In this document: positions 2,570 through 62,465 of the stretch, one piece after another | Position numbering within the stretch: the stretch's first letter is position 1 | How the letters are laid out: each line of letters starts with the position of its first letter | Source: Lachnospiraceae bacterium | Lineage (GTDB): Bacteria > Bacillota > Clostridia > Lachnospirales > Lachnospiraceae | Length of the DNA stretch: 64,000 bases | NCBI GenBank assembly: GCA_015056945.1 | Contig: SVFH01000009.1 | Coordinates: 1 to 64,000 of the forward strand | Direction: 5' to 3' | The notes under the pieces: model-generated | The model's input: only the letters and a program-made list of their open reading frames with translations | The model's database searches: none | Told to the model about the DNA's origin: nothing | Program-made: the position numbers and the translations under genes

Positions 2570-4015
2570 TTATTCTACAACAACGTCTAAGTTATCAGCA
2601 ACGTTCTGCTTGAAGTCTTTGATAGCATCTTCACGAGACTTGTTACCAGCAACATATTCACGAACCTGATCTCTCCAGAACTGGTTGATCTTCTCATCGT
2701 ACTGAGTTAAGTTATCACCCTTAGCGTTAGCGTTAGCAGGTACGAATACGTCGAACATGTTCTGTCCGCCTAAGAAGTCAAGAGAACCATCAGAGATGCT
2801 CATTACTGTACCGGAAGCAACACAGTCTTTAGCTGTCGGAGTTGCAGGATCGTTATCCCAGTCAACTGTACCGTTAGCCCAAGCGTACTGAAGTCCGCTT
2901 TCTGTGCAGTCAAGTGTAATCCACTCGATGATTTCAGCAACTGCTGCAGCCTTGTCAGCATCTGCTGCTGCGTTCTTGCTAGCAAGTAACCATGTACCAC
3001 CCCAGAAGAAACCTACAGGAGATTCACAAATAGCCCAATCACCATATGTTCCTTCACCTACTGCAGCACCACCACAGTTAGGAGCGATTGTGTAGTTGAT
3101 TAACCAAGCAGGTCCGAAGAAACCGAAGATGCCCTGAGCGCCTTCACCCTTCATATCTGCAAACCAAGCATCTGTCCAGTCAGCTGTTTCGTTGTGAAGC
3201 TTACCATCTTTTAATTTCTTAGAAACATCAAGTAAAGCTTCTCTCTTAGGATCAATTGTTAACTTACCATCAACAACCCAACCCTGATCAGAGCTGTTTT
3301 CGATTGCGTGCCAGATATCACCGTCACCGGAAATGATACCATAGCCTTTAGCCTTTAATTCATCAGCTGCTGTCCAGAACTGATCCCAGCTACCTGAACC
3401 GCCACCAATTTTCTTAGAAATTTCTGCAGGATCATCTGTTCCCCATGTATCTTTAGCGATGGAACGACGATAGATGAATGCACCACCTGTAGCCTGGTAT
3501 CCCAAACCTACAACAGCACCATCCGGATTTGTACCGATTTCTACAGAGTAATCAGCGATAGCTGCTTCTTTGATCTTAGCATCTACATCGATACCTAAAT
3601 CAGCGTAAGGAGCTGCCCAAGCTGCACCATCACCCTTGGAATATTTAAGAATGAAAGCTGCTTCTGCACAGTAGATGTCAGGAGCGCTGTCTCCGCCAGC
3701 TGCTAAAGCAGCATCCAAAGCGGGCTGATATGCACCATCAGTAGTCGGTGTGATTACTGTGTTGATATCGTAAGGGAAATCAGGGTTCTGAGCTACATAG
3801 TAGTCAACCATCTTAGGAACTTCATCTGTGAATGCCCATAAGTTGATAGTACCTTTCTTTCCAGCAGGTGCAGGTTCAGTTTCATCTCCACCAGTAGTAT
3901 CTTCGCTAGCTACGGGATCTGCATCCGGAGTAACAGGATCTGCAGGTTTGTCACAAGCAACAAGAGTAGTTGCAAGTACGCATACGCCTAATGCGCAAGC
4001 CAATAACTTCTTCAT
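2570..4015 (-). CDS. Sugar-binding lipoprotein of ABC importer (extracellular solute-binding protein family 1)
   Basis: The N-terminus MKKLLACALGVCVLATTLVAC is a lipoprotein signal with lipobox LVAC, so residue 21 should be lipid-modified. An acidic, Pro- and Asp-rich linker to about residue 52 precedes the binding domain, which starts at KGTINLWAFTDEVPKMVDYY. Asn, Trp and aromatic residues typical of sugar clefts occur throughout. The length of 481 is usual for CUT1 binding proteins. The ribosome binding site AAGGAGG lies just upstream of the ATG. It is the first gene of the importer operon. The ligand may be the sugar handled by the xylB operon 3-8 kb away, but that is inference from proximity. 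Confidence 0.92.
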   Translation of the reverse strand: MKKLLACALGVCVLATTLVACDKPADPVTPDADPVASEDTTGGDETEPAPAGKKGTINLWAFTDEVPKMVDYYVAQNPDFPYDINTVITPTTDGAYQPALDAALAAGGDSAPDIYCAEAAFILKYSKGDGAAWAAPYADLGIDVDAKIKEAAIADYSVEIGTNPDGAVVGLGYQATGGAFIYRRSIAKDTWGTDDPAEISKKIGGGSGSWDQFWTAADELKAKGYGIISGDGDIWHAIENSSDQGWVVDGKLTIDPKREALLDVSKKLKDGKLHNETADWTDAWFADMKGEGAQGIFGFFGPAWLINYTIAPNCGGAAVGEGTYGDWAICESPVGFFWGGTWLLASKNAAADADKAAAVAEIIEWITLDCTESGLQYAWANGTVDWDNDPATPTAKDCVASGTVMSISDGSLDFLGGQNMFDVFVPANANAKGDNLTQYDEKINQFWRDQVREYVAGNKSREDAIKDFKQNVADNLDVVVE

Positions 4016-44834: not shown

Positions 44835-45701
44835 TTAATAAAATATTTGTGCCAGCGGCGAATCTTTTGCAAGAATCAAAGTCTTATTTCCTCCGCGTAA
44901 AGCTTCTTTGGCAGCTTCAAGGCTTCTTGTGTAATCATAAAACTCTGCTTTACTCTCATCAGAATATGCTTCCGAAAGAATCCGCATGTACTCGCCTTCA
45001 CCTTTTGCCCGAAGCAGTTCTGCTTCTTTCTCTGCATTAGAAATCATAATCGCAACCTGCTTATCCGTTTCATTTCGAATAACTTTTGCTTCTGATTCAC
45101 CTTCGGCAGTATATGTTGCTGCAATATTATCACGTTCTGATATCATTCGCTCATATACAGCTGTTTTATTATCGCTCGGAAGATCAAGTCTCTTTGTTTC
45201 CACTTCCAAAATGCGAATACCGTACTGTTGAACCGAAGTCCCGATTGTTTCAATAATCTCATTCTGCAAAGCATCACTTCTTCCGCTGATTACTTCTTCC
45301 TGGGTCATACTGCTGATAACATTTTTCGTTGCATTATAAACAACCGTATCTATTCTGCTTTCCGCATTTCCGAGAGACATATTCAAAGATTGTGCAAATT
45401 TCAAGGCATCTGTAATTTCCCATAACACATAACAATCACAAATCATCGTTTTTTTGTCACGTGTAATAACATCCGAAGGTGCCAAATTGTATAAAAGAAT
45501 CTGCTTCGGAATTGTAGATGTTGTTTCCACAAACGGAATGCGGAAACTGAGCCCTGCCTCACTAATGACGCGGTCTATTTTTCCAAACTGTTTTACCAGT
45601 GTGTATTCGTCTTCATTCGTGATTACCATGGACGAAGAACCGATTACAACTCCAACCAGTAAAATAAAAAGAATAATAATGAAAGGGATTGTCTTTTTCA
45701 T
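44835..45701 (-). CDS. hflC: SPFH-domain protein HflC
   Basis: This 288-residue membrane protein has one N-terminal span (IPFIIILFILLVGVVIGSSS) and a prohibitin/SPFH domain (TLVKQFGKIDRVISEAGLSF, IPKQILLYNLAPSDVI). A helical region follows (KVIRNETDKQVAIMISNAEKE). HflC with HflK forms a membrane cage that controls FtsH in other bacteria. Its ATG overlaps the hflK stop (ATGA). Confidence 0.9.
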   Translation of the reverse strand: MKKTIPFIIILFILLVGVVIGSSSMVITNEDEYTLVKQFGKIDRVISEAGLSFRIPFVETTSTIPKQILLYNLAPSDVITRDKKTMICDCYVLWEITDALKFAQSLNMSLGNAESRIDTVVYNATKNVISSMTQEEVISGRSDALQNEIIETIGTSVQQYGIRILEVETKRLDLPSDNKTAVYERMISERDNIAATYTAEGESEAKVIRNETDKQVAIMISNAEKEAELLRAKGEGEYMRILSEAYSDESKAEFYDYTRSLEAAKEALRGGNKTLILAKDSPLAQIFY

Positions 45702-46732
45702 CTGTCGCCCTCCTCTCCCTGCGGTAATGTTACAAGCGGATCTGTTGTTGTACCGGGAATGCTGAATGTATACGGATATATCGGAATCACTTTCTGTGTA
45801 CTTCCGTCACCGCTGTCAATAATCACGGTCAACTCCGGCAGCAATTCTTCCATTGTTTCATAAAACATTCTTCTTTTGGTCACAAGCGGATTTTTAATAT
45901 ATTCTGCATATGTTGCATTAAAGACTGCAACCTCTGCTGTTGCCTGGTTAATACGCTGTGTCATTTCAGCCTCTGCAAGCTGTTTGATTTTATCTGCTTC
46001 AGCCTGTGCAGCAGGTATCTGCTCATTTCTGTATTTTTGTGCATTGTTTAATGCAGTTTCTTTACCTTGTTTCGCCGTTTCTACTGCTTTAAATGCCTGC
46101 ATAACATCTTCCGTCGGCGGCTCAGAATCCTGAATCGTAATATTCACAAGCTGAATCCCCATATCGCGCTCTTCCAAACGTTCCACAACCATCTCACGAA
46201 TAGATGCCTGAATCTCATTCTTGCCGGATGTAAGTACGCTGTCAACATCATAGCTTCCGATTACATTACGGATACAGGATTGTGAGATATTTTTCAGAAT
46301 TCCCACCGGATCTTCTGAAGCAAAAGTTGCTTTCACCGGATCCGAAATACGATATTCCACAAAGAAATCAACATTTACAAAGTTATAGTCCGATGTAATC
46401 ATAAGGGATTCATCTTCCATGTATTCATCCGTATCAAGGCTGTATCCGATAGGGAATCCCTGGATTGTTGTATTTACTTTGATTACATTCTGAATAAAAG
46501 GAACCTTAAAATGCAATCCGGGTTCGGTTACGGCACGGGCCTTTCCGAATGTCACCAAAACGCCCTGTTCCTGTTCCCTGATCTGATATGTACTCTGCGA
46601 AAGCGCAATTAAGGCTATCACTGCAACAATAACAATACAGCACCACAGAATAATTTTGGATGGTTTTGGTGACTTTCCGTCCTTCGGCTTTCCATTGCTT
46701 GAAAAACGTTCAAAAATATTTTTTTCAGCCAT
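45698..46732 (-). CDS. hflK: SPFH-domain protein HflK
   Basis: This protein of about 344 residues has a short charged N-terminus and a membrane span (IILWCCIVIVAVIALIALSQ). The SPFH domain reads EQEQGVLVTFGKARAVTEPG and NVDFFVEYRISDPVKATF, followed by a helical C-terminus ending near LPQGEEGDR. Start at 46732 has AAGGAAGAG upstream. The frame extending to 46813 is coded by the arms of a perfect hairpin (46754-46788) and is rejected. It lies after the chimeric binding-protein operon on the same strand but with this hairpin between. Confidence 0.9.
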   Translation of the reverse strand: MAEKNIFERFSSNGKPKDGKSPKPSKIILWCCIVIVAVIALIALSQSTYQIREQEQGVLVTFGKARAVTEPGLHFKVPFIQNVIKVNTTIQGFPIGYSLDTDEYMEDESLMITSDYNFVNVDFFVEYRISDPVKATFASEDPVGILKNISQSCIRNVIGSYDVDSVLTSGKNEIQASIREMVVERLEERDMGIQLVNITIQDSEPPTEDVMQAFKAVETAKQGKETALNNAQKYRNEQIPAAQAEADKIKQLAEAEMTQRINQATAEVAVFNATYAEYIKNPLVTKRRMFYETMEELLPELTVIIDSGDGSTQKVIPIYPYTFSIPGTTTDPLVTLPQGEEGDR

Positions 46733-46753
46733 ATTTCTCTTCCTTTCTGTACA

Positions 46754-46788
46754 ATAATCCGAATGTAATTCATTTACATTCGGATTAT
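46754..46788 (-). other. Perfect 15-bp hairpin between chimeric binding protein and hflK
   Basis: ATAATCCGAATGTAA (46754-46768) and its exact complement (46774-46788) flank a 5-base loop. The minus-strand sequence after it, TGTACAG, is not T-rich. It may end or protect the upstream operon transcript. Confidence 0.7.
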
Positions 46789-46799
46789 CATTTGTTTCA

Positions 46800-49232
46800 T
46801 TATCTTCCTTCATTCACATAGGTCTGAACCCTGCTCTGAATAATTTCAACAACCTGTTTGGCATTCTTTTGTCCTGCATAAAACGGTGCTGCTTCTTCTG
46901 TAATGATATTGGAAATCTGATCATTCGTAAAAGTTACGGATTCAACACCTGAAATGTATTCCAGAAGATACTCCGCACGTTCCTTAGATATCGGAGGAAG
47001 CACTAATTCCTGACTGCCGTTATAATAGAAGTCATCATATTCATGTCTTACCCCCTCCGAATCAATATAAAATTCTTTCTGCATCTGTACTTCCATCATT
47101 TTATTCACAGCAGAGATACGAACCGGGAAATTGTACTCTACTTTTTCCTGATACTCCGATGTCATAAAAGTACGGATAAACTCCCATGCTGCCTCTTTAT
47201 TCTTAGACTTTGCAGAAATTGCATATATCTGATTCAGACAAAGAACTGCACCCTTTCCTTCTGTACCAGGGAAACCAACAAGTTCAATCTTCTCGCCGAA
47301 ATCACCTTGCTCCAAACGATTAAAGTCTCTGAAATTCGAAAGAAACGCATGTGATAAAATCGCCTTATCTTCACGATAGATAGTCTCATATGTCTCAAAG
47401 CTTTCTTCATCGTAATTAATCTCTGTCGGATACTTTGCCGTGTACTCCAATGCTTTGGCAAAAGAATCAGAGAAATTGCATTTTCCCGTACGAATATCAA
47501 GGTATTCGTCATATCCGAGCGTGAGCAGATGAAACAGAATCGTTTCATTTACGGTACTATAAAAAGCATTCACTCCAAGCTTTTGTTCCAACGCCTCAAG
47601 TTCCTCAAATGAAATTCGTCCGCTCTCCGGCGCATATTTTTCTTTCATTGCCATGGACATAACATAAAAGCTTGATGTAACTGCGTACATCTTATCTTCT
47701 GAAGAAAGCGCAGCTTTTACATTCGGGAAAATATCATTTTCGTCTATATCGGCATCTGCGCTGATGAAATCATTCAAAGGTGCGAAAGTTCCTTTTTCCA
47801 TATAATTGTAAAACTGCTCTGTCGTTTCTGTCATAAAAATAATATCCGGACAGTTTCCCGAAATCAAATCATTATTAAATGCTTTCTGCGCTGATTCCCA
47901 GTCACCGTTTTCGTCCCGGTAATTTTTTACCTGAATTCTTATGTTTTCATTTTTCGAATTAAACTCTATGATTTTGGATGCAAGTTCATAATCATAGTAG
48001 AGCATGCCGATTGTAATCGTCTCCTTATCGGCTATTTCCGAAGGAGCAACTTTTTTGCAAATTACAACGCCTTCCATAATCCAGGTTTCTTTGTTTCGTT
48101 TGCCAAACACAACCGTATTTTCATCCAATAAAAACGGTTCCGATAAAGTTCCGCCGTCTATATCAGACTCAATAAATCCCATAAGCTTAACCGCTTCAGC
48201 CTCTCCTGCTTTCCATCCGTATATTCCGGAGCTGCCAAGAACTGTAGCATCATAACTTCCGCTTCCGTTTTCAAATGTTGAATAATCTCCAAGAGAAATT
48301 TCATATTCCTGTCCCAGCTTAAACGCAGTCAAATCGAGGGCAATCACGACCTGTGCCCATTCTCCGTTCGGTAACTCCTTATCGGCAGTTGCGAAAACAC
48401 CACCGCTCGGCGAACAGAAGTAGGAATACAAATAATTATCCGACTTGATTTCTCCAAGAAGTTTAAACTCTGTATCAAATACCTGAATCGTATTCTCCAT
48501 TCCGGCAACCAATTTGCCGTCTTTTGTCATAATAAGTTTCTGTACGTAAGCAAATTCGGAGTCTCCGACACTTATTTCTACAGAAGCTGTTTCATTTCCT
48601 TGCAAATCATATTTTTTAAGAAACCATTGTTCAAAATTATTAACCACCGCATAAATTACGGAATTTTCCAAGTCGGGTAATACCTGATTAACAGAAGCCC
48701 CGCCACTCAGATTGATGTCAGTTGACTGTGCAACACTTCCATCCTGATTATAAACGATTATATGAACAATTGTTAAATAATCCTCTATATTATTTTCATC
48801 TTCCCAATATTCGTCTGTCTCAGGCAGAATCTCCGGATTCTCCGGATCCTCTAAATCAGTTTGCATTTCCGCATCTTCTGAATTAATTGCTTCAGATTCC
48901 GCTTCCGTAGCATTTGCCGGCGTTCCCATCGCATCGGGCAAAGATATGTGAATCTCATCTTCCATGGTGCCGTCATAAACCTCTCCGTCACCTTCGGGTA
49001 TGTCCGGATAAATCGTTTCCAGATAAATTGCCGCAATCTGTTCCCCACAAGGAAACATCTTCAACAAATATCCATATTCCGCTTCCGAAATTTCAAATGA
49101 ACTGCTTTCCTTAAACACATAATTCCTATAATCGACTGTATCGCTATTCCCTTTTTTGCATGCAACCGCCACAAAAATCAGGCCGACAGCAATCAATAAA
49201 AGAATTCCTTTCCTCATCATGCTCTTACTCAT
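46800..49232 (-). CDS. Chimeric lipoprotein: propeller-like sensor fused to family 1 solute-binding protein
   Basis: This 810-residue protein has a lipoprotein signal ending FVAVAC (Cys 25). An acidic linker (about 100-155, rich in Glu, Asp, Pro) interrupts the first domain. Residues about 160-410 hold repeated beta-blade-like units (VIYAVVNNFEQWFLKKYDLQG, GKLVAGMENTIQVFDTEFK). From about 425 a complete CUT1-type binding domain follows (ETITIGMLYYDYELASKIIEF, CPDIIFMTETTEQFYNYME, KNKEAAWEFIRTFMTSEYQEK), which alone would be a full binding protein. Doubling by a sensor-like domain is unusual. It is the last gene of the six-gene operon; its ATG overlaps the stop of the MacB-domain gene. Confidence 0.85.
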   Translation of the reverse strand: MSKSMMRKGILLLIAVGLIFVAVACKKGNSDTVDYRNYVFKESSSFEISEAEYGYLLKMFPCGEQIAAIYLETIYPDIPEGDGEVYDGTMEDEIHISLPDAMGTPANATEAESEAINSEDAEMQTDLEDPENPEILPETDEYWEDENNIEDYLTIVHIIVYNQDGSVAQSTDINLSGGASVNQVLPDLENSVIYAVVNNFEQWFLKKYDLQGNETASVEISVGDSEFAYVQKLIMTKDGKLVAGMENTIQVFDTEFKLLGEIKSDNYLYSYFCSPSGGVFATADKELPNGEWAQVVIALDLTAFKLGQEYEISLGDYSTFENGSGSYDATVLGSSGIYGWKAGEAEAVKLMGFIESDIDGGTLSEPFLLDENTVVFGKRNKETWIMEGVVICKKVAPSEIADKETITIGMLYYDYELASKIIEFNSKNENIRIQVKNYRDENGDWESAQKAFNNDLISGNCPDIIFMTETTEQFYNYMEKGTFAPLNDFISADADIDENDIFPNVKAALSSEDKMYAVTSSFYVMSMAMKEKYAPESGRISFEELEALEQKLGVNAFYSTVNETILFHLLTLGYDEYLDIRTGKCNFSDSFAKALEYTAKYPTEINYDEESFETYETIYREDKAILSHAFLSNFRDFNRLEQGDFGEKIELVGFPGTEGKGAVLCLNQIYAISAKSKNKEAAWEFIRTFMTSEYQEKVEYNFPVRISAVNKMMEVQMQKEFYIDSEGVRHEYDDFYYNGSQELVLPPISKERAEYLLEYISGVESVTFTNDQISNIITEEAAPFYAGQKNAKQVVEIIQSRVQTYVNEGR

Positions 49233-50338
49233 TTTGTCTCCTCCTTTTTCACTTTCCCTTTTTTATCCGTGCTTCTTTGTGAAAACCACCCCTGTATATA
49301 TTCCACCATCGTCACGATACCTTCCTTGGTCGGTTTATGTTTCACCATAAATACGATTACAGCCACAATCCAATATAACACAAGTGCGGCAACAATACAA
49401 ACCTGAACCAATGCAACCTCTGCAAGTTTTTCTTCTTTTACTCTTGCAATATTTTCCCAAAACGGCAGTACAATATCATTTACCTTCATAGAGCGCACTG
49501 CTCGTGTTTTCAAAATCTGATAAAATGCCTCATAACTGAATCTGTCAGAATTTTCCACAACTGCCATGTCCGTATCTTCAAAATTAAAAAACGGTTCCGT
49601 GAGTTTCATTGCAAATCCCCTGACAGGATTCGGTAATACTGCCTCATACATGGTAATCGCTGCCTCCGGAAAGACAGACGCATAAGACTCATACGGCAGA
49701 TATACCGTAAGTTCATCGCTTCCTGCCATTTGCTCCAGTTCTCCTTCGGGACGTTCATAAACGCCTCCAATCCTGTAATAAGCATCATTGATTCTGACAT
49801 CTTTCCCCTCGATATCGGAAGAGCCGAACAATTGCCATGCAACGTTTTCATCTATCAGCACAACATCTTTACGGATGTCGCTTTCCGCAAAATACCTGCC
49901 GGATAATAATTTCACAGGATGAAACAGAAAGAAATCACCTCCGACACCGATTGCAGTGACTGAAACACTCTTCTTTTCGCCCTGCACCGTTAATTCCCCG
50001 AATGACGCATACGTATCCACATAAAGTCTTGCCAAGGAATTATCCGGTTCTTCGCCTGCATCCTTCAAGGCCTTTTCCATTTGATAACGCGTACTTTGAA
50101 TCTGCTCAGTTCCGAGACAAAGGCGTTCGCTAAAGAAAAAACTAAGCTGTGCATAATCTCCCTGCGCAGACCAGCGTTTCGCCATTAACTGATCAGGCAA
50201 ACTTTCCTTTTGACGTTCTAAATAGAAAGTAATGCCTGCCAGAAAGCATAACAATATCAGAGTGAGCAGTAACGCAATAAAATGAACGCGGCCCGTTTTG
50301 CGGATGACTGACGCGAAAAAAGTTCTTATTTTTTGCAT
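49229..50338 (-). CDS. Two-span membrane protein with MacB-type periplasmic core domain
   Basis: This 369-residue protein has one N-terminal span (HFIALLLTLILLCFLAGITFY) and one near the C-terminus (VQVCIVAALVLYWIVAVIVFM). Between them is an extracytoplasmic domain of about 270 residues with the MacB_PCD signature (LLSGRYFAESDIRKDVVLID, AWQLFGSSDIEGKDVRI, YYRIGGVYERPEGE). True MacB/FtsX permeases have four spans and a FtsX domain, which are absent here. Such domains normally link an exporter to its adaptor, and an HlyD-like adaptor gene lies one base upstream. It has no ATPase part. Confidence 0.8.
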   Translation of the reverse strand: MQKIRTFFASVIRKTGRVHFIALLLTLILLCFLAGITFYLERQKESLPDQLMAKRWSAQGDYAQLSFFFSERLCLGTEQIQSTRYQMEKALKDAGEEPDNSLARLYVDTYASFGELTVQGEKKSVSVTAIGVGGDFFLFHPVKLLSGRYFAESDIRKDVVLIDENVAWQLFGSSDIEGKDVRINDAYYRIGGVYERPEGELEQMAGSDELTVYLPYESYASVFPEAAITMYEAVLPNPVRGFAMKLTEPFFNFEDTDMAVVENSDRFSYEAFYQILKTRAVRSMKVNDIVLPFWENIARVKEEKLAEVALVQVCIVAALVLYWIVAVIVFMVKHKPTKEGIVTMVEYIQGWFSQRSTDKKGKVKKEETK

Positions 50339-50339
50339 C

Positions 50340-51902
50340 TTAATTCATTCCTTCCGCCAAACGAATCTGATCTCCGGCCTCCAAAGGCTTGGTCGAAGTC
50401 GTAATAACATACTCATATCCTTCCAGTAATGCATTTATGGCAGTGTACTTGTCATCACTTGCCAAAACCTCCACATCAACACGCTGTGCCACATATCTGT
50501 TTCCGAACGGCGCTGACTTGGATTGTACAATCAAAATAAACTTACCGGAATTATCTTCCCTGACTGCACTATTTGGTACAATCAATTCATACTCCCTGCT
50601 GCGTTGACCTACCGCCAGCGTCAGACTGTCTCCCGGCATCACATCCGCACCCGCTATTTCAAATACCAGCAGTCTGTTTTCCCTGGGATTCTCCGGATCA
50701 CTTTTGATTGCCGTTAAGTTTGCGGTAATATCTCCGTAATACCACATATTCTGCACCTCAACCGGGTCTCCCACACGAATAACGCTCGCCTGCTTCACCC
50801 CTGTTGAAAATGTAAGCATCATTCCCTTGCCGTCAATCTGCATTACCGCAGCATCCGCACCCGCCTGCGTTGTTTCTCCGGCTGCATACGAAAGTGAAGT
50901 AACCTTACCGTCAACAGGCGCATTAATGGTTGCACCGATAGACTTCTGTTCCATTTTTTCAACTTCCGCCCTCTGCTCGGTAATTTTTCGATAGCTTTCT
51001 GCCAAATCAAGTTCTAAAATGATATCAGCAAGTTTTTTCTCCTTCTCTTGCGTACTTGCTGCAAGTTTTCCTTCTTCTTCTATTTTTTGACGCTGCAGCT
51101 GCGCAATCTGATTCGCAATTTCGGGACTGTTCAATTTCTGTTCCAGGGCAATCTGTGCATTTGCAACTTTCGCTTCGAGCTTCCACACCTTTTCCTGTGC
51201 CGCATCCAATGCTTCTTTAGCCGCAATCTTCTCCGGGTCATCATCAGGTCTCTCTGCGAGTGCATCGTATGCAGCCTGTTTCCTTGACAAGTCAACTCTC
51301 GCATTATTCAAGGCAATCTGTGCATCAGCAAGTGCCTTGCTCTCCGCCGAAGCATCCACCTTGTTCTGCTCCAGCAAAGAAATCTGTTTCATCAAATCAT
51401 CCACAACCTTCTGAGACGCATCAATCTTGGACTGCAACCCGGAAATACTGTCCTGACTCTGTTCAAGCGTCCGAACATTTCCTGCCTGAATTTCTTTCAA
51501 CCTTGCATTTGTAATTCCGCCATTGAGAACCGCTTTCTCAAATTCAATTTCCAATGAAGCCAATTCATTACGTGCAGTCTTTAATTCTTCACTTTCTTTA
51601 TCTTCAAGATAATAAAGTACATCACCCTTTTTTACGAAATCATCTGTTTTAACAGCGACGCTCTTAATCGTACGGGTTTCATCGACAACAACATGATAAG
51701 GATCAATTGCTTCTACTACACCCGAACCGCGAATTTTATTGGAAATAGGTCCGCTTTGTACATACTCTGTTGCAACCTGCGGAAGAGAATAATTCATAAT
51801 TGTATTGGAAAAGAAAGTGAGAACAAGCATCACACTTAAAAAAATAATTGCGACGTTTTTAATCCATTCTCTTTTTTTGCCTGTTTTATTATCATGTTCC
51901 AT
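50340..51902 (-). CDS. HlyD/RND-type membrane fusion (adaptor) protein
   Basis: This 520-residue adaptor has an N-terminal membrane anchor (VAIIFLSVMLVLTFFSNTIM). A first barrel half reads GSGVVEAIDPYHVVVDETRT and FVKKGDVLYYLEDKESEEL. A very long alpha-helical hairpin (about residues 110-345) follows, rich in Ala, Glu and Gln. The second half reads INAPVDGKVTSLSYAAGETT, and beta-barrel and membrane-proximal domains run to the end (YEYVITTSTKPLEAGDQIRL). Adaptors of this type work with exporters, so its place in a sugar-importer-like operon is odd. Ends 1 base before the MacB-domain gene. Confidence 0.88.
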   Translation of the reverse strand: MEHDNKTGKKREWIKNVAIIFLSVMLVLTFFSNTIMNYSLPQVATEYVQSGPISNKIRGSGVVEAIDPYHVVVDETRTIKSVAVKTDDFVKKGDVLYYLEDKESEELKTARNELASLEIEFEKAVLNGGITNARLKEIQAGNVRTLEQSQDSISGLQSKIDASQKVVDDLMKQISLLEQNKVDASAESKALADAQIALNNARVDLSRKQAAYDALAERPDDDPEKIAAKEALDAAQEKVWKLEAKVANAQIALEQKLNSPEIANQIAQLQRQKIEEEGKLAASTQEKEKKLADIILELDLAESYRKITEQRAEVEKMEQKSIGATINAPVDGKVTSLSYAAGETTQAGADAAVMQIDGKGMMLTFSTGVKQASVIRVGDPVEVQNMWYYGDITANLTAIKSDPENPRENRLLVFEIAGADVMPGDSLTLAVGQRSREYELIVPNSAVREDNSGKFILIVQSKSAPFGNRYVAQRVDVEVLASDDKYTAINALLEGYEYVITTSTKPLEAGDQIRLAEGMN

Positions 51903-51917
51903 TATTTCGTTCTCCTT

Positions 51918-52865
51918 TTATCCCTTAATACCACCCTGGTACGTAATTCCTTCTACCAGGTAATCCTCTCCATACATAAACACCAGTAACCCCGGAACCA
52001 TATAGATAGAAGCAACCGCAAACGCAAGTCCGATTTCGCCCGCATTAATCTTGGACAAAAAAATCGAAAGCGGATGCAATTCTTCATTTGCAAGCAGAAT
52101 CAAAGGTTGCTCAACCATATTCCAAAAATCTATAAAAATCAGAATCGCAACCGAATACAAAGCACCTTTGCAAAGCGGAATGCTGATGTGCCGGAAAATC
52201 TGCCATTCACCGGCCCCGTCAATTTTGGCAGCCTCAATAATTCCGTTTGGAATTCTTTTCATATATTTTGTCAGCAGATACACCGCAAAAGGCGAAAACA
52301 TTCCCGGCAGCCAGATTGCCCACCGCGTATCAAAAATCCCCATCCATTCAGAAACCAGGAAATTCGGTACAAGCGTAACCTGATACGGCATCAACACAAT
52401 AATAATATAAACAAAAAACAGAATTTCCTTCAGTCTTCCTTTAAATCTCGTAAACGCATAAGAAGCAAGTACTGCCGTAATCAGCTGAAAAATAACAATC
52501 GGAACCGTATAAATCACGGAATTCCAGAACTTAAACAAGTACTTGGGGCTTTTGAGCAAAACAGTAACATACTGCTGCAACGAGACCATATCAGGAATCA
52601 ACTTCAAATTCACCACTTCCGAAACATACACCTTGCCGCCGGTGTCTGTCGTCTCAAACACTTTACCGTAATTTGCATTGATTTCGGATTGAGTCATAAA
52701 TGAGTTCGTAATCGTAACCACAGTCGGCATCAAAAACAAGAAAGCAAAGACGAGGGCAACCATCAACAGTACTGCTTTTTGCAAAATACCTTTCTTTTTG
52801 CGTTTCGGTTTCACATTATTCTTTTTTATTTTCTGCCACAAACGTCTGAATATCTTCATCCGCAC
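51918..52865 (-). CDS. Carbohydrate ABC transporter permease, MalG type (hybrid operon)
   Basis: This 315-residue permease has a long basic N-terminus and six or so spans starting KAVLLMVALVFAFLFLMPTV. A 45-residue extracytoplasmic loop comes after the first span (NANYGKVFETTDTGGKVYVS). The EAA loop is GIIEAAKIDGAGEWQIFRHI with the conserved Gly intact. The C-terminus DYLVEGITYQGGIKG is close to MalG endings. It lies 3 bases after the MalF-type gene and 15 bases before the adaptor gene, so all are one transcript. Confidence 0.9.
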   Translation of the reverse strand: MRMKIFRRLWQKIKKNNVKPKRKKKGILQKAVLLMVALVFAFLFLMPTVVTITNSFMTQSEINANYGKVFETTDTGGKVYVSEVVNLKLIPDMVSLQQYVTVLLKSPKYLFKFWNSVIYTVPIVIFQLITAVLASYAFTRFKGRLKEILFFVYIIIVLMPYQVTLVPNFLVSEWMGIFDTRWAIWLPGMFSPFAVYLLTKYMKRIPNGIIEAAKIDGAGEWQIFRHISIPLCKGALYSVAILIFIDFWNMVEQPLILLANEELHPLSIFLSKINAGEIGLAFAVASIYMVPGLLVFMYGEDYLVEGITYQGGIKG

Positions 52866-52868
52866 TCC

Positions 52869-53750
52869 CTATTCTTCCATATCTTTACCGAAATGATTTT
52901 CCACAAGATACAAAAATCCAATAATAATAATCATGACAATCGCCATCAGAATCGCAGCCGACGATAACTTCTGATAATCCAGCTGCCTAAACATATTGTT
53001 CATAAAATGCTGCAATGTGTACAGACTATCGTACGGATAATCCCCGGTCAAAAGATAAACCTCGCGAAACGTTTTAAATGAACTGATGAGCGACATAATT
53101 GCAACAAAAAGTATAGTTGGTGAGAGATACCTGATTTTAATATGGATAAATAATTTCCACACCGATGTCGTATCCAAAAGCGCAACCTCCATGGACTCAC
53201 GCGGAATGGTTCCCAGTGCTGCAAGAAAAAGAATCATATTATATCCAAGATTCTTCCAAAGAAACAAAATCAACACAACTATCGGAGCAAAATCAGACTT
53301 AAACCAGTCAATCGCATCAAGCCCGAACCATGAAAGAAATACATTCACGAAACCGTTATAATTAAACAACACCTGAAACACAAGAATTACTGAAGCAACC
53401 GGAACCATCATCGGACTTAAATATGCCGTACGGAATTTATCCGCAAACGGAATCTTTTTGTCCAGAAGCAATGCCATCAAAAGAGAAATCACTACTGCGA
53501 GGGGCACGGCAACAAAAGAAAATTTAAAAGTATTCCATGCCGCAAGCTGAAACGCTTTGTTTCCGATAATATCAATAAAGTTCTTAAGGAAAACAAAATT
53601 AGCCGAAACGGGATTATCCACCATGGAATAAAACACCACAACAAGAAACGGCACCAGATAAAAAACCGAAACACCCAAGAAACTGGGCGCAAGGAAACTT
53701 CCGATTTTTACTCTGTGTTTCCATTTTCGCTTCCGATTCTTTTTCATCAT
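52869..53750 (-). CDS. Carbohydrate ABC transporter permease, MalF type, with degenerate EAA loop
   Basis: This 293-residue permease has six likely spans beginning IGSFLAPSFLGVSVFYLVPFL. The region that should be the ATPase-docking EAA loop reads MEVALLDTTSVWKLFIHIKI. The second Glu-Ala-Ala motif is weak, the conserved Gly is replaced by Thr, and the usual LP after it is RY. This may weaken contact with an ordinary MsmX-type ATPase, or mean a different partner. Partner MalG-type gene follows at once. The upstream gene 53764-54279 is 13 bases away. Confidence 0.87.
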   Translation of the reverse strand: MMKKNRKRKWKHRVKIGSFLAPSFLGVSVFYLVPFLVVVFYSMVDNPVSANFVFLKNFIDIIGNKAFQLAAWNTFKFSFVAVPLAVVISLLMALLLDKKIPFADKFRTAYLSPMMVPVASVILVFQVLFNYNGFVNVFLSWFGLDAIDWFKSDFAPIVVLILFLWKNLGYNMILFLAALGTIPRESMEVALLDTTSVWKLFIHIKIRYLSPTILFVAIMSLISSFKTFREVYLLTGDYPYDSLYTLQHFMNNMFRQLDYQKLSSAAILMAIVMIIIIGFLYLVENHFGKDMEE

Positions 53751-53763
53751 GCTACGGCTCCTT

Positions 53764-54279
53764 TCAATTTGTTTCTTCCCTTTCGGTCATAAATATTTCA
53801 ATATCTTTCTTTTCCGCCTGATAAGCAAGCGTTTTTTCCCTAATCTCATCCATGCGTCCAAGTACCGCAGCCCTGCGTGCAGGCACATTTACGATTCCCT
53901 TCATCCTTGCTTTCTCCTGTATTGAAGCATTTCCGGAATATTTATAAATCAAATTTCTGGCAGAAATCACAATTCCTGCACCAAAAATAACGAACAGAAT
54001 GGGTAAACCGCTTGCAAGTGCAATTGCAAGTCCTGACCCCTTCACAATTTCTCCGGCAAGCAGGTCTAACACAAACAAAACTATAACGGGAATAATACAA
54101 ACAATGCAAATAACCATGGGAATGAAATCCGTCTTTTTATTGTTTTGAATACATGAATATTCGTATTCCAATTCCATCTTCTCATTCCGCATATCTGCCA
54201 ACTCGCCTGTAATTTGTTTATATCGTTCCATCTTTAACTGTTCTTCAAGAGAATACTCTTTAAATACATCAAAATACAT
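53764..54279 (-). CDS. Small membrane protein with coiled coil, first gene of the hybrid operon
   Basis: This 171-residue protein has an N-terminal helical region (YSLEEQLKMERYKQITGELAD). Two membrane spans follow (FIPMVICIVCIIPVIVLFVL and GLAIALASGLPILFVIFGAG). A C-terminal helical segment ends EIFMTEREETN. I use the ATG at 54279 with AGGTGG upstream; the frame to 54375 runs into the tRNA-Arg terminator. I do not recognise the family. Its tight spacing to the permeases suggests a subunit or assembly factor of that system. Confidence 0.7.
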   Translation of the reverse strand: MYFDVFKEYSLEEQLKMERYKQITGELADMRNEKMELEYEYSCIQNNKKTDFIPMVICIVCIIPVIVLFVLDLLAGEIVKGSGLAIALASGLPILFVIFGAGIVISARNLIYKYSGNASIQEKARMKGIVNVPARRAAVLGRMDEIREKTLAYQAEKKDIEIFMTEREETN

Positions 54280-54356: not shown

Positions 54357-54387
54357 AAAAAAACCGATAAGCCAAAGCTTATCGGTT
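54357..54387 (-). terminator. Terminator of tRNA-Arg
   Basis: AACCGATAAG (minus strand from 54387) pairs perfectly with CTTATCGGTT (to 54362) around a 6-base loop, followed by at least seven Ts. Confidence 0.88.
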
Positions 54388-54391
54388 CACA

Positions 54392-54465
54392 CGTGCGCTA
54401 GAGGATTCGAACCCCCGACCTTTTGGTCCGTAGCCAAACGCTCTATCCAGCTGAGCTAAGCGCAC
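54392..54465 (-). tRNA. tRNA-Arg, anticodon ACG
   Basis: The cloverleaf has acceptor GTGCGCT/AGCGCAC and D arm GCTC/GAGC. The anticodon stem is TTTGG/CCAAA with loop CTACGGA (anticodon ACG), and the T arm GGGGG has loop TTCGAAT. The discriminator is G, and CCA is not encoded. A34 is the usual TadA target in bacteria. Promoter and terminator are both visible, so it is an independent unit. Confidence 0.94.
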
Positions 54466-54492
54466 ATCTGTTACTTCCGTAACACTCTGCCT

Positions 54493-54521
54493 ATTCTACT
54501 CTATCTTTATTTTTTTGTCAA
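54493..54521 (-). promoter_or_regulatory. Promoter of tRNA-Arg
   Basis: TTGACA (54521-54516), 17 bases and TAGAAT (54498-54493) lie 27 bases before the tRNA. Confidence 0.8.
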
Positions 54522-56737: not shown

Positions 56738-58573
56738 ATGAAAACACGACTCATTCGTTTTATCTTCAGCGCATTGATCTTTATTGCTGCGCTGATTCTT
56801 TCACAACATTACTTTTATCCGGCTCTCGTACTTTTTATCATCGCTTACTTGTGTGCCGGATATGATGTTATTTGGAATGCCTTACGAAATATTATTCGCG
56901 GCAAGCTTTTTGATGAAAACTTTCTTATGTCAGTTGCCACCATCGGTGCCTTCTGCATCAGTGAATATGCAGAGGCTGTCGCTGTCATGCTTTTTTTTCA
57001 GCTTGGTGAACTTTTTCAATCCCATGCTGTTAACAAATCCCGCAAATCCATCGCATCACTGATGGATATCCGTCCTGATTATGCGAACAAGTGGGAAAAC
57101 GGTGAATTTGTCAAAACAGACCCTTATGACGTGAATGCGGGCGATCTTATTTTAGTCCGCCCCGGCGAGAAAATTCCTTTGGACGGAATTATCAAAGAAG
57201 GTAATGCTTCCTTGGACACTTCTGCACTGACCGGTGAATCTGTGCCGCGTGAAGTCGGTGTCGGCGATACGGTATTAAGCGGTTCCATCAATCTAAACAG
57301 TATTCTTCAAATCGAAACGACATCAGAATTCGGAGAATCCACCGTAAATAAAATCCTTGACCTGGTAGAAAATGCCGGAAACAAGAAATCAAACGCAGAA
57401 ACTTTTATCACTAAATTTTCATTGGTTTACACACCGATTGTAGTCGGCTGTGCTGTTTTACTGGCCTTGATTCCGCCTTTTTTTGCCGGTTTCGATACAT
57501 TCACGTTCTGGCTGGCGCGTGCACTTTCTTTTCTTGTTGTTTCCTGCCCGTGCGCCCTTGTAATATCAGTACCGTTAAGCTTTTTCGGCGGTATCGGAGG
57601 CGCCTCCAAAAAAGGAATCCTCATCAAAGGCGGAAACTATTTGGAAGCCCTTGCTCAGGCAGATACAATAGTGTGGGACAAAACCGGTACCTTAACCAAG
57701 GGAACCTTTGTTGTAAAAGAAATCAATGCTCTCACGCATTCCAAAGACTCCCTGCTCTTCTATGCTGCATACGCAGAACATTATTCACCGCATCCGATTT
57801 CAGCCTCCATCCAGAATGCTTACGGCAAAGAAATCAACGAGAATAAAATACAGAACTATAAAGAAATTTCCGGCTTCGGAGTATCAGCCGAAATAGACGG
57901 TCATGAAATCCTTGCCGGAAATGAAAAACTAATGAACCAAAATCAAATCACATTCCAAAAACCGGAATTAATCGGCACCATAGTCTATATTGCAATCGAC
58001 CGGACCTTTGCTGGTTCCGTTGTTATCGGAGATGAGATAAAAGAAGATGCGGCAACTGCCGTACGCTCCTTGAAAAAATATGTCTCCAAACAGGTCATGC
58101 TTACAGGAGATTTAGATGCCGTAGGTCAAAAAACAGGTTCACTTTTAGGTCTTGACGAAGTATACACACAACTTCTTCCCACAGACAAAGTCTCACATGT
58201 GGAAACACTTCTTGGCAAACTGCCGCGCAAAAAGAAACTTGTTTTTGTAGGTGACGGAATGAATGACGCACCCGTACTCGCACGAGCCGATATCGGAATT
58301 GCAATGGGTGCGCTCGGGAGTGACGTTGCCATTGAGGCCGCTGACATTGTCATCATGACAGACGAGCCTTCCAAATTAAAGGACGCTATTGAAATCTCTG
58401 TGAAAACACACAGAATTGCAATGCAAAACATTATCTTTGCACTGACGGTCAAAATAGGCATCCTTGCCTTAATTGCCTTGGGTTTTGCAAATATGTGGGC
58501 TGCCGTATTTGCCGATGTCGGCGTGTGCGTCCTTGCCGTATTAAATGCCATGCGAATGCTTAAATCACGCTAA
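56738..58573 (+). CDS. Zn/Cd/Pb-transporting P1B-type ATPase (CadA/ZntA type)
   Basis: This 611-residue metal exporter begins directly with membrane spans (MKTRLIRFIFSALIFIAALI) and lacks an N-terminal HMA domain. The actuator has DTSALTGESVPREVGV. The transport site in span 6 is FLVVSCPCALVISVP (CPC near 270). The phosphorylated Asp is in VWDKTGTLTKG near 314, and VGDGMNDAPVLARADIGIAMG is the hinge motif. The last span has the Asp typical of ZntA-like pumps (AAVFADVGVCVLAVLNAMRM). GGAGGAG precedes the ATG. It ends 9 bases inside the convergent response-regulator gene. Confidence 0.94.
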   Translation: MKTRLIRFIFSALIFIAALILSQHYFYPALVLFIIAYLCAGYDVIWNALRNIIRGKLFDENFLMSVATIGAFCISEYAEAVAVMLFFQLGELFQSHAVNKSRKSIASLMDIRPDYANKWENGEFVKTDPYDVNAGDLILVRPGEKIPLDGIIKEGNASLDTSALTGESVPREVGVGDTVLSGSINLNSILQIETTSEFGESTVNKILDLVENAGNKKSNAETFITKFSLVYTPIVVGCAVLLALIPPFFAGFDTFTFWLARALSFLVVSCPCALVISVPLSFFGGIGGASKKGILIKGGNYLEALAQADTIVWDKTGTLTKGTFVVKEINALTHSKDSLLFYAAYAEHYSPHPISASIQNAYGKEINENKIQNYKEISGFGVSAEIDGHEILAGNEKLMNQNQITFQKPELIGTIVYIAIDRTFAGSVVIGDEIKEDAATAVRSLKKYVSKQVMLTGDLDAVGQKTGSLLGLDEVYTQLLPTDKVSHVETLLGKLPRKKKLVFVGDGMNDAPVLARADIGIAMGALGSDVAIEAADIVIMTDEPSKLKDAIEISVKTHRIAMQNIIFALTVKIGILALIALGFANMWAAVFADVGVCVLAVLNAMRMLKSR

Positions 58574-59911
58574 CCGTAACGGCTGTATATCATATGTAAT
58601 CTGAATTCCGCATGAGGCAACCTCTGCCTCATTGCGGAATTTTTCAAGAACACGGTTCGCTACATTCTTTCCGTTCTCCATATCCGCATCCATCAAAAGA
58701 ACAATATACTGACTGTTGCTGTACTTCGTTCCCGTATCAACAGAGCGTAACGACGAAACAACTGCATTTTTCAAATATTCCATCATTTGCTCCATATTTA
58801 CAGAGCTCTGCAAATCCGGATTTACAGCAAGCGTAAACAGTATAGTCTGAACCATCTGATGATTTCGATTCACACTTCGAAGCGCAAAGTCATAAATAAT
58901 CTTAAACTCTTCGTATTCAACATGAAATGCACCGATTTGCTCACCCTGACTGTCCAGAATCATTCTGTGAATATCTCCCAGTTCAGCCTCCGTATCCACG
59001 GATTCCAATGCACTTCCTTCTCCTTCTGTCCAAAAATGATATGCATTTTTACCGTTTTCCTTTACAAAATACAGTGTTTCGTCTGCATCTTCATACAGCT
59101 TTTCAAAGGAATCCGTTCCATCCGTGATTTTTGCACCAATTGAAACAGATACTATGCCGCCGTATCCCATTGCTCCCATTTTATCAGAAAACAGTTTAAT
59201 GATACCGGCCGCTTTCCCTGCAGCTTCTTCTTTCTTGGTTACATCCGTAAAAAAGGCAACAAATTCATCACCACCCAGACGGCAAAGAATATCTTTTTCT
59301 GAAGAAAAATGTTTCAATGTTTCGGCAAAGCGTTTCAGCACCTCATCTCCTACCATGTGCCCATAGGTATCATTCATTGACTTGAAATTATCTAAGTCTG
59401 TCATGAATAACGTTCCGCCGTGACCGCTGTTCAAAAGTTTTTCTAATTCCTGCTCTAAATAATCACGGTTTCCCAAGCCTGTCAACGCATCCGTGAAAGA
59501 CTTCATGGTTTTTTCTTCCAATTCCTGCTCTAAATCTTTTCGAATTGCCTGCGTTTCAAGAATTCTTGCAACACGACTCTTCATGACATCTGCCACAAAG
59601 GGCTTCGTGATGAAATCATCTGCGCCGCACTGCAAACAATCTGCTTCGGTAATCGGGCTGGAGTCCGCTGTCAGAAAAACAACGGGAATCTGCGCCCATG
59701 CACTGTTTGCTTTGATTCTTCTAACAACTTCCTTACCATCCATTTCAGGCATTTCGATATCCATCAAAATCAAATCCGGAAGCTCTTTCTCAAGATAAGC
59801 AAGCGCTGCCCTACCGGAATTGACTGCTTCCGTCTGGTACTCTTTTGCCAATGCATGTTTGGCAAGCAGACAATTTATACTGTCGTCATCAACAATTAGT
59901 ATCTTCCTCAT
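58565..59911 (-). CDS. Response regulator with GGDEF domain
   Basis: This 448-residue cytoplasmic protein has a receiver domain (about 1-125): ILIVDDDSINCLLAKHAL, phospho-Asp in LPDLILMDIEMPEMDG, and DDFITKPF. A GGDEF domain (about 140-300) has DALTGLGNRDYLEQEL and the intact active site RLGGDEFVAFF. No RXXD inhibitory site precedes it. A C-terminal domain (about 310-448; IYDFALRSVNRNHQMVQTIL) resembles a degenerate GGDEF-like fold. It is likely phosphorylated by the hybrid kinase encoded just upstream (gap 13 bases) and makes cyclic di-GMP. Confidence 0.9.
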   Translation of the reverse strand: MRKILIVDDDSINCLLAKHALAKEYQTEAVNSGRAALAYLEKELPDLILMDIEMPEMDGKEVVRRIKANSAWAQIPVVFLTADSSPITEADCLQCGADDFITKPFVADVMKSRVARILETQAIRKDLEQELEEKTMKSFTDALTGLGNRDYLEQELEKLLNSGHGGTLFMTDLDNFKSMNDTYGHMVGDEVLKRFAETLKHFSSEKDILCRLGGDEFVAFFTDVTKKEEAAGKAAGIIKLFSDKMGAMGYGGIVSVSIGAKITDGTDSFEKLYEDADETLYFVKENGKNAYHFWTEGEGSALESVDTEAELGDIHRMILDSQGEQIGAFHVEYEEFKIIYDFALRSVNRNHQMVQTILFTLAVNPDLQSSVNMEQMMEYLKNAVVSSLRSVDTGTKYSNSQYIVLLMDADMENGKNVANRVLEKFRNEAEVASCGIQITYDIQPLRLA

Positions 59912-59924
59912 ATTCCCTCCTATA

Positions 59925-62465
59925 TCACAAAATACCTTCTCCGGAAAGGTATTCTCTTACCTCATCAATCAGCTTTGTATACTTTTCCATCGCTTTCGGA
60001 TGGTTTGCAAGAATGAATTCTATCTTATCTTTCTCATCCGTTGCTTCTCGCAATACTTTTCCGGCTTTTTCCAATTCCAGACAATCGGCTGCCAAAGAAT
60101 CACATCCGATGTTTATGGAATTTGTCTTAAGCGCATGTATCAAAACCGTATAATCATTCCAGTTTTGCTCTTCCAGATATCCTTTCAGACTTTCCGTACG
60201 TTCTTCATACTGATCATAGAACATTTTTAATATCTCAAGATATACTTCCTTCATATCTGAAACATATTTCATTCCCTTTTGTGGACATAAAAGTCCTTCC
60301 GGTGCAGCATCCTCAACCATCTCCTTGCGTTCATCCGCTTGTTCTTCTTTCACTTCTTCCTGCTCCTCCTCAATCGGTAGTATCTTATCTTCCGGTATAT
60401 ACTGCCCGATCATGTCTTCCAAAGTTTTGCCCACAACCGGCTTACTCAGATAATCCGAAAATCCTGCTGCAAGATACATCTCTTTGGCACCTGAAACCGC
60501 ATTCGCGGTAAGCGCAATTACAGGAACTTCTTTATTAAGATTCTCCGGTGTTTTTTGCGCTTGGCAAAGCGTTTCAATACCATCCATTCCGGGCATCATA
60601 TGATCCAGCAGAATCACATCATAATAATTTTCACACATCAATTCCAAAGCCTGATATCCGTTCATACAGGTTGTAATGTTAATCTGCGTTTTCTTTAACA
60701 AATTCTTGATAACCTGCAAATTAATCTGGTTATCATCTACGACAAGCACAGAAGCCTGCGGCGCGACATAACTGTTTTGATACTTCTTTGTATGCCCTGA
60801 GAAATCCCTGTATTTCTTCACGAAATCTCCCAACCTTGCATCCCCTTTGATTGGCTGAGACAAATAAACCGTAAAAACGGAACCTTCTCCATAAGTACTC
60901 TCTACTTTGATGCTTCCGTTCATCATCTGAATCAGGTTATGCGTAATGGCAAGTCCGAGACCGGTACCCTCAATGTTTCTGTTATTTTTTAAATCAAAAC
61001 GCTGAAACTGATTAAACAACGCATTCATATTCTCTTTACGAATTCCGATTCCGGTATCTGAAACAGACATAACAAGATTAACCATCTTATAGTCTGCATC
61101 TGCTTCTCCTGTCACCTTCAGACAAACAGAACCTTCTTCCGTATACTTTATCGCATTATTCAATAAATTCAGAAGAATCTGTTTGATTCTTACATCATCG
61201 CCATACAGGACATCCGGAAGTTCACTTCTTACATCAATACTGAAATCCAATCCCTTCTGTTTGGCCTTCAGTTCAATCATTGTAACTACGTCTTTTAGTG
61301 CCTCCCCGAGCTGGTAGGTATGTTCAAAAATTTCCATTTTACCGGATTCGATTTTGGAGAAATCAAGAATATCATTCACAACCGCAAGAAGATTATGGCT
61401 GGCAATATCTATGTTTCCGGCATATTCAAGAATCGTATTATCCTCACACTCACGCAGAATCATTTCATTCATGCCGATAACGGCATTGATAGGCGTTCTG
61501 ATTTCATGCGACATATTGGCAAGGAAATCGGATTTGGCATGATTGGCCTGTTCCGCACTTTGCTTTGCCTGACGGAGTTCATCGCTTTCTCTTGCCTTTT
61601 TCTCTGCACCGAGCAAATAAATAGTAACGATTAATAATAAAAGCCATAACAATCCGAAACACCATAAAACCAGCGGAATCAGTAAATGAATATCTCCCGC
61701 AACCACATCCACCGGAACACTTCCGATTACGTACAGGCCTGCATACTCTGTCTCCGAAACAAAAACAATATTATCATTTCCGCTTTCTCCGCAAATAGAT
61801 GCTGCCGCTGAATTGATATTCATTTTATCACGGATTTTTACAAGTGCTTCCTTATATTGTTCCTTTTGAAAAATCGTACGGTCAAACGGCTGTTCCGTCA
61901 TTTCAAGCAGCACATTTCCGTCAATATCTATAATTGCGCAGACTCCTTTCCCATTATAACTTGAAAGGTCCATCCTTTCCGCCAGTACCGCTCCCTGATA
62001 AAGCTTATATAATACATACTTTACATTCTCACCATTGTTAACAGGTACCGTAAACAGCACAGAAGTATCCGTATTACAACTAACCGCTTCATTTCCGTGA
62101 ATAGATTCAAAAATACCATCGTAAGCAGTTGTATCCAACGCCTCGCCGTAAGCAACTTCTCCGTTAATACGCAAAACACCGTAGGAAATACCCTCTTCTT
62201 TGCGCAAAAACTCTTCCATTTCTCCCGTTTCCATCCGAATGAATGCAGTAATCTCGTCTAAAAGCCTTAATTCTTCACCAAATGTATTATTTACAATTTT
62301 GGAAATCTCTTTTCCCTGTTCTGCTGCCTGATGTTCTAAATGGACATTGATAATATCCTGCATTTTCCACCACATGGCAACGCAAACAACAATAAGAACG
62401 GCAAAACTGATTGCAATCACGCAAAAACTATATTTATTTGCATTTGAGGTTGTATTATTATTCAT
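59925..62465 (-). CDS. Hybrid sensor histidine kinase with receiver and HPt domains
   Basis: This 846-residue membrane kinase has span 1 near 12-34 ([19 protein letters not shown]), an extracytoplasmic sensor of about 230 residues and span 2 near 265-290. Phospho-His is in [20 protein letters not shown] near 318. The ATP domain reads [26 protein letters not shown] and [10 protein letters not shown]. The receiver has [17 protein letters not shown] and [16 protein letters not shown]-terminal HPt has His in [14 protein letters not shown] near 780. All parts of a phosphorelay are thus in one chain. The stop of the upstream binding-protein gene overlaps its start by 8 bases. Confidence 0.93.

Follow-up and report, generated by a model that had tools for sequence, protein, structure and literature searches.

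Within the 64,000-nucleotide stretch of Lachnospiraceae contig SVFH01000009.1 analysed here (the window), six minus-strand genes spanning 54279-46800 form an operon that brings together a pair of importer-type permeases (MALF and MALG), an HlyD-type adaptor (HLYD), a membrane protein with a MacB periplasmic core domain (MACB) and a solute-binding protein (SBP), preceded by a small coiled-coil protein (CC). The anatomy of the MALF-MALG-HLYD-MACB module, and its inheritance as one unit, which extends over many Clostridia, are secure. What it does is a more tentative matter, and the reading preferred here, to which not quite even chances are given, is of a conserved ATP-binding cassette (ABC) machine that combines an importer-type core with a MacB-type extracellular assembly and acts on envelope-derived or envelope-active molecules, a direction and a substrate that we infer. 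ABC importers and efflux pumps built on an adaptor are classed apart, and a conserved clade of this composition would join them. Among open-access literature, judged by titles and listings, no published description of a MalF/MalG-HlyD-MacB combination was found.

An earlier reading of the same DNA, made from its letters alone (the sequence-only reading), had described six minus-strand genes with short gaps or overlaps; all six were found in place in the open reading frame (ORF) list of the window, separated from CC to SBP by gaps of 13, 3, 15 and 1 bases and then a 4-base overlap. Its naming of the genes agrees with Pfam and NCBIfam (BPD_transp_1 twice, HlyD_3, MacB_PCD and SBP_bac_8). ORFs were called mechanically with the earliest start taken, and transmembrane (TM) segments were counted by a simple hydropathy scan. 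The genes, with lengths in amino acids (aa), are as follows.

53764..54279, minus strand: CC, small coiled-coil protein with two hydrophobic segments (171 aa; no Pfam family)
52869..53750, minus strand: MALF, MalF/UgpA-type permease (293 aa; BPD_transp_1, E=4.7e-13)
51918..52865, minus strand: MALG, MalG/UgpE-type permease (315 aa, GTG start; BPD_transp_1, E=4e-14)
50340..51902, minus strand: HLYD, HlyD/MacA-type adaptor (520 aa; HlyD_3 and Biotin_lipoyl_2)
49229..50338, minus strand: MACB, two-TM protein with a MacB periplasmic core domain (369 aa; MacB_PCD, E=1.4e-14)
46800..49232, minus strand: SBP, lipoprotein with a propeller-like N-terminal half and a solute-binding C-terminal half (810 aa; SBP_bac_8 at residues 423-697)

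MALF is UgpA-like by NCBIfam at a score under the cut-off; the EAA loop of the window's MALG is canonical and that of its MALF lacks the usual glycine. HLYD has a single N-terminal hydrophobic segment and a long coiled-coil hairpin, matches TIGR01730 at E=4e-22 (under the cut-off) and has profile matches in the PDB that include HlyD, MacA and EmrA. In MACB the core domain is flanked by one TM segment on each side, and Pfam gives no match to an FtsX domain. Its AlphaFold2 (AF2) model, with a pLDDT of 93.3, has as its top Foldseek matches MacB (5gko, 3ftj and 5nik) and the extracellular domain of YknZ (5f9q), and also matches the Streptococcus pneumoniae transporter 5xu1. The AF2 model of SBP (pLDDT 88) shows a strand-rich N-terminal half followed by the SBP domain, and the closest PDB structure is CbpC (7x0o), both by profile (E=2.1e-42) and as the top Foldseek match; the propeller reading rests on sequence-profile matches and the strand pattern, while the Foldseek rows listed match the SBP domain. 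The lipobox cysteine of SBP (C25) is invariant. Domain identification of the operon genes found no ATPase among them, of either the MalK type or the MacB/LolD type.

The sequence-only reading had treated the importer and exporter parts as one system and proposed conservation of gene order as the check, and the order is indeed conserved. When the window's MACB was used as query against 200 genomes of the same family, 36 had a match and 21 a strong one (E<=3.7e-32, the window's own genome included), the remaining 15 being weak and covering part of the core domain. MALF, MALG, HLYD and MACB are contiguous, in one order and on one strand, at 18 of the 20 other strong family loci fetched; the two exceptions start inside HLYD at a contig end. 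A MALG-profile scan of named genomes returned at least 580 relatives, and the best 80 were kept, a choice that biases these loci to the core clade. All four genes lie in order in 72 of the 80 (ORF and profile scan), and at L060 and L070 MACB is in place but fused with SBP, which brings the ordered loci to 74. An intact module is present at L059, in Kineothrix alysoides. Of the incomplete loci, five (L051, L062, L071, L102 and L106) are truncated at contig ends, and L100 has no MALF where one would be expected. Across the 200 family genomes, strong MALG matches (E<1e-140) occur in 21 and MACB matches (E<=1e-20) in 21, with 20 genomes common to both. The non-shared cases look like assembly edges (the G147 contig stops about 260 bases past MALG, and G100 has a MALG fragment), and G135 carries MALG and MACB on different contigs.

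In the control set of 20 ordinary CUT1 MalG loci, by contrast, none had an HLYD or MACB profile match at E<=1e-3. A single FastTree run on the joined permease alignment put all 55 hybrid members on one side of a split (support 1.0) and the 20 ordinary CUT1 pairs on the other, from which it follows that the hybrid combination was probably made once, the ATPase gene having been gained or lost afterwards. A chance join of unrelated genes, which has the rarity of the combination and nothing else in its favour, is thus refuted by a gene order kept across classes (at 74 of 80 loci and at 18 of 20), by the empty CUT1 control and by the tree; its probability is negligible. Median pairwise identity is 62 and 67% for the permeases, against 36% for HLYD and 30% for MACB, as expected of a conserved motor or channel with variable outer parts.

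Three subfamilies can be told apart. Subfamily A, to which the window belongs, corresponds to the strong MALG level found in 21 of the 200 family genomes, while A- or B-level matches occur in 52. Subfamily B is the weaker MALG group of the same genomes (43 places, 207-279 bits), of which 19 hand-picked loci (L198-L216) were examined; an HLYD match adjoins MALG in all 19, very weakly at L199 (17 bits), and a MACB match is present in 14, the others being L199, L200 (cut by a contig end), L203, L206 and L212. Subfamily C comprises eight loci in other classes (genomes G350, G402, G544, G600, G626 and G643), in which MALF-MALG-HLYD-MACB is joined by a MalK-type ATPase gene located after MACB or, in L193, after SBP. 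Two loci of another family, L132 and L133, have subfamily-A permeases with an ATPase directly after MACB, and at L138, which stops at a contig edge, the genes run SBP-SBP-HLYD-MACB-MALF-MALG, the MACB being weak. In the tree subfamily A is a clade (support 1.0) that includes L132 and L133; B and C mix with each other and are not clades.

The subfamilies also differ in the coupling loops and in MACB. The EAA glycine of MALF is present in 5 of 96 proteins of A, 17 of 18 of B and all 4 tested of C, and the MALF of L132 has it; in MALG the figures are 96 of 98, 18 of 19 and 4 of 4 tested. The hydrophobic segments of MACB number 4-6 in C (8 proteins), mostly 3-4 in B (12 of 14) and 2 (87 of 97) or 3 (10 of 97) in A, a loss from C through B to A which suggests that MACB is now a docking piece rather than a permease.

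The sequence-only reading had noted the absence of an ATPase. For the window's subfamily this holds, as 101 family loci of subfamily A contain no MalK-type ATPase. It does not hold for the class: 10 of the 11 non-family loci embed one in the operon (the exception being L138). The MsmX-type ATPase that the same reading had proposed to look for elsewhere in the genome exists at G000:C22:65530-66636, where it scores 495.7 bits against UgpC (NCBIfam cut-off 432). This protein and the embedded ATPase of L134 both have ABC_tran and OB_MalK domains, and the L132 ATPase likewise exceeds the NCBIfam UgpC cut-off and is 55% identical to that of the window genome. No MALF, MALG, HLYD, MACB or SBP profile match was found around the own-genome ATPase (about 7.5 kb on each side) or around 17 others, so that they appear to stand alone. 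A MalK-type match at E<=1e-70 was found in all 28 module genomes searched, with some of the matches truncated at contig ends, and in G339, G513 and G350 the genome's single MalG-type match (E<=1e-12) and its single MalK-type match (E<=1e-70) both lie in the module. It is well supported by the embedded copies that a MalK/UgpC-type ATPase powers the module, and the same would apply to the window's organism, whose orphan ATPase probably serves several importers. MsmX-like, as well as VanRS-like and Bce-like, is here a name which we take to fit what the domain matches show.

Such an arrangement has parallels, in that MsmX is described as a stand-alone ATPase serving sugar systems (PMC7658222) and the cellodextrin ATPase of Clostridium thermocellum is likewise reported to stand alone (PMC9601137). 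These parallels favour the view that the module is an ordinary oligosaccharide importer running on a shared MsmX-like ATPase, with HlyD and MacB_PCD doing no more than presenting long glycans or threading them through the wall. The permeases resemble CUT1 proteins and the SBP domain matches sugar-binding proteins, which point the same way. The sequence-only reading had held that a nearby dedicated ATPase in conserved copies would make the system an ordinary transporter; by that standard the embedded genes do bring it closer to a transporter, yet to an unusual one: relatives with a MalK-type ATPase keep the HlyD and MacB subunits, parts that occur at none of the 20 ordinary CUT1 loci. Also at odds with sugar feeding are the flanks of subfamily A, where 70 Pfam families over 127 proteins were tallied (ORFs of more than 900 aa and one edge ORF omitted) and, among the 25 families shown, no repeated sugar pathway or catabolic partner appears; FGGY kinase occurs twice and UxaC once. 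Two-component and D-Ala-D-Ala genes near relatives, described below, argue in the same direction, as do the published negative results for CbpC, which bound none of the sugars tested and whose mutant grew normally (PMC9601137). On balance the ordinary importer is judged unlikely.

Pairs of an OmpR-type regulator and a kinase were found in the fetched stretch of 8 of 8 subfamily C loci, 14 of 19 B loci and 1 of 103 A loci, compared with 1 of 18 in the control, made up of loci that surround stand-alone ATPases. A pair counted wherever it fell in the stretch (4.5-21 kb), and at some C loci it lies 3-5 kb from the module. A D-Ala-D-Ala carboxypeptidase is encoded near the module at L134, L136 and L196 of subfamily C, and a D-Ala ligase-like gene at L135, L194 and L196. 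Pfam identifies an M15 (VanX-type) peptidase at L135 and L194, a similar sequence being read in L196, and confirms VanW at L194 and L193 and FemAB at L135. As an observation in its own right, the subfamily-C modules of L135, L194 and L196 lie near glycopeptide-resistance-like genes (two-component pair, ligase-like, VanX-like and VanW-like). The term 'transport' is absent from the main text of the vanI paper on Desulfitobacterium (PMC4229326).

The receptors give a further view of the system. At L060:12991-16272 (1093 aa) and L070:12912-16148 (1078 aa) MACB and SBP form a single reading frame, with a lipobox-like segment right after the last TM segment of MACB, which suggests that MACB and the receptor touch, although the fusions come from 2 of 80 loci and possibly one lineage. 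In ten genomes covered, propeller-SBP matches, some of which are fragments, number 25 in G029, 5 in G042, 4 in G188, 4 in G002 and 1 in the window genome. Those of G029 (L237-L248) are dispersed, four of them in tandem in L237, in a genome with a single strong MALG module. In 18 regions around dispersed propeller-SBP copies neither MALF nor MALG gave a match. All three non-module copies fetched from G188 lie with FtsX/MacB-type transporters: that of L250 with a MacAB-type transporter and a two-component pair, that of L249 between regulator and kinase genes with an FtsX permease and a LolD-like ATPase, and that of L251 with two FtsX permeases and an ATPase. Modules are usually accompanied by SBP lipoproteins. 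That of L036 (G120, of the same genus) has no adjacent propeller-SBP, its MACB being followed by a DJ-1 gene, and three SBP matches occur elsewhere in that genome. A phmmer search of a subfamily-C SBP against the PDB at 1e-10 gave no match.

These findings bear on a second alternative, namely that the system is a sensor more than a transporter, in which the lipoproteins and MacB/HlyD parts would read the state of the envelope and the ABC core would relay it, like BceAB with its kinase. The kinase/regulator pairs of subfamilies B and C, the regulator-kinase setting of the L249 receptor and the many dispersed receptors of G029 fit this well, and BceAB is cited as a precedent for sensing by a MacB-family transporter (PMC5985334). 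Against it stand the near absence of such pairs in the window's own subfamily and the conservation of the permeases above that of MACB and HLYD, which points to channel or motor work; a sensor is accordingly considered quite unlikely. Export, in which the importer-type permeases would have been repurposed to expel a product via an HlyD conduit, is more doubtful still. HlyD and MacB parts are best known from efflux (PMC5985334), but the MalK/UgpC-type ATPase and the SBPs are importer parts, no MacB/LolD-type ATPase was found inside the module in the loci read, and the window's MACB is without the FtsX part.

In the preferred reading, that of an importer-type core joined to a MacB-type extracellular assembly, the stand-alone UgpC/MalK-type ATPase of the window genome would bind the EAA loops of MALF and MALG and power them. 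Over the permeases HlyD would make a collar or stalk, perhaps in the form of a ring seated on the MacB_PCD domains. An importer using the adaptor as a stalk, one of the suggestions of the sequence-only reading, is a live mechanism. The SBP lipoproteins would act as receptors contacting MACB. The substrate, which is less certain, may be a fragment of wall or lipid-linked glycan, or else an antibiotic or peptide that acts on the cell wall, rather than a food sugar, and the favoured direction would be ATP-driven uptake or removal from the membrane's outer face. The envelope role is a best-supported guess resting on relatives: on the two-component pairs of B and C, on the D-Ala-D-Ala, Van-like and FemAB-like genes near some C modules, and on the FtsX/MacB-type transporters that accompany the propeller-SBP copies of G188.

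Several observations weigh against this reading. Subfamily A is almost without the two-component link (a dedicated partner is lacking in 102 of its 103 loci), so that the envelope role had to be transferred from B and C, whose loci also supplied the query sequences for kinase and regulator. Alpha-amylase accounts for 7 of the 127 flanking proteins of subfamily A, which favours an ordinary importer, and an ABC ATPase together with a two-component pair was found by the SBP only at L240 among 15 dispersed regions outside G188, in which no FtsX scan was made. The weakest MalK-type match (248.9 bits) belongs to G029, itself a module genome, and the window genome has five MalG-type matches, so that its orphan ATPase need not be meant for the module. 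The degenerate EAA loop of MALF in subfamily A could mean weakened coupling to the ATPase. Finally, earlier work is reported to have found sugar binding by CbpC (PMC8303734), and a 2024 review credits the C. thermocellum transporter to which CbpC belongs with cellodextrin uptake (PMC11212667), both of which speak for the ordinary importer.

A bolder version, which is rather unlikely, holds that this is a new class of ABC machine, in which a MacB-type assembly for mechanotransmission was taken up by a type I importer core. A shared MalK-type ATPase would then drive both transport and, through HlyD/MacB, work in the wall space, and exchangeable propeller-SBP receptors, with as many as 25 matches in a genome, would select the targets. 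If true, the module would represent an ancestral system of envelope surveillance and salvage, found in some lineages with glycopeptide-type resistance genes. If the preferred reading of a hybrid clade is true, abundant anaerobes would gain an unstudied envelope machine. It would also account for adaptor proteins in cells that have no outer membrane, and would make it possible to test whether a MalK-type ATPase can drive work through foreign subunits.

The surroundings of the operon were also read. Downstream of SBP lie two further genes:

45698..46813, minus strand: hflK (TIGR01933 over cut-off; overlaps the SBP gene by 14 bases)
44835..45701, minus strand: hflC (TIGR01932 over cut-off; directly after hflK)

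HflK and HflC were rejected as core parts, the SBP-hflK-hflC order being found at L052 and L053 of the 80 named loci. CC, which the sequence-only reading had counted as part of the system, fared no better, with sequence matches at only 3 of the 80 (L051, L052 and L053); its ATG start (171 aa) follows a GGAAGGTGG stretch, and the mechanical ORF begins at 54375. A tRNA-Arg(ACG) gene (54391-54466) lies directly before the operon, preceded by a promoter-like TTGACA-17-TAGAAT and followed by a terminator-like hairpin (region 54361-54521). A response-regulator/GGDEF protein and a hybrid histidine kinase, encoded at 58565-62465 about 4.3 kb upstream of the operon, form a pair that narrowly misses the two-component definition, the window being outside the 103 loci counted; between this pair and the operon are a PGA_cap gene (Pfam), an ArsR-like regulator and a P-type ATPase (ORF reading). 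At 542-4015 the window holds a CUT1 permease pair of the ordinary kind, next to a 481-aa ORF and without an adjacent ATPase; it served as control locus L218.

Two variations were seen at other loci. The MACB ORF of L039:9090-10763 is 557 aa long and has a C-terminal extension which by its motif resembles a HAD-type phosphatase. At seven subfamily A loci (L063, L082, L083, L086, L104, L107 and L122) an ABC ATPase lies upstream of the module beside a very large ORF; four of these large proteins were checked (L063, L083, L104 and L107), and all four are FtsX permeases.

Of the known systems, the CUT1 importers (MalFGK2, UgpABCE and those served by MsmX in Bacillus) likewise have a MalF/MalG-type pair, an SBP and a MalK/UgpC-type ATPase, whose counterpart here is encoded in the operon in relatives or stands alone in the window genome. 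Compared with them the module adds the HlyD adaptor and the MacB_PCD protein, a degenerate MALF EAA loop and a propeller-like SBP domain, and is without repeated sugar-catabolism neighbours among the families shown.

Transporter C of C. thermocellum is probably a relative of the hybrid module, CbpC being the closest solved structure to the module's SBP domain by profile and fold, but CbpC, a chain of 438 residues, lacks the propeller. An extra loop is reported to block its pocket, and the transporter C mutant to grow normally on glucose, cellobiose and Avicel, in a study whose legend for five sugar clusters names an acrA gene (PMC9601137). The cluster is given as Cthe_2125-2128, with 2125, 2126 and 2128 named as permeases and SBP (PMC8303734), which would leave 2127 for acrA; this assignment is presumed, and a MACB gene may be present. 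A CbpC query matched 0 of 398 phylum genomes at E<=1e-20, which is uninformative as C. thermocellum may not be in that draw, and the class search around G544 yielded other relatives. Membership of the hybrid class, if true, could explain the failure of CbpC to act like a sugar-binding protein in the study of 2022.

The Gram-positive MacAB systems (YknXYZ, and 5xu1 of S. pneumoniae) share with the module an HlyD adaptor and a MacB-core membrane protein in one operon. They differ in that the module is tied to MalF/MalG permeases and is without a MacB/LolD-type ATPase, and in that their four-TM MacB permease with an FtsX domain is replaced in the window by a two-TM MACB without one. BceAB-type systems have a different type of permease and of ATPase, and the window's subfamily is almost without a kinase partner, but a regulator/kinase pair lies near subfamilies B and C, and a MacB-related extracellular domain is present in both.

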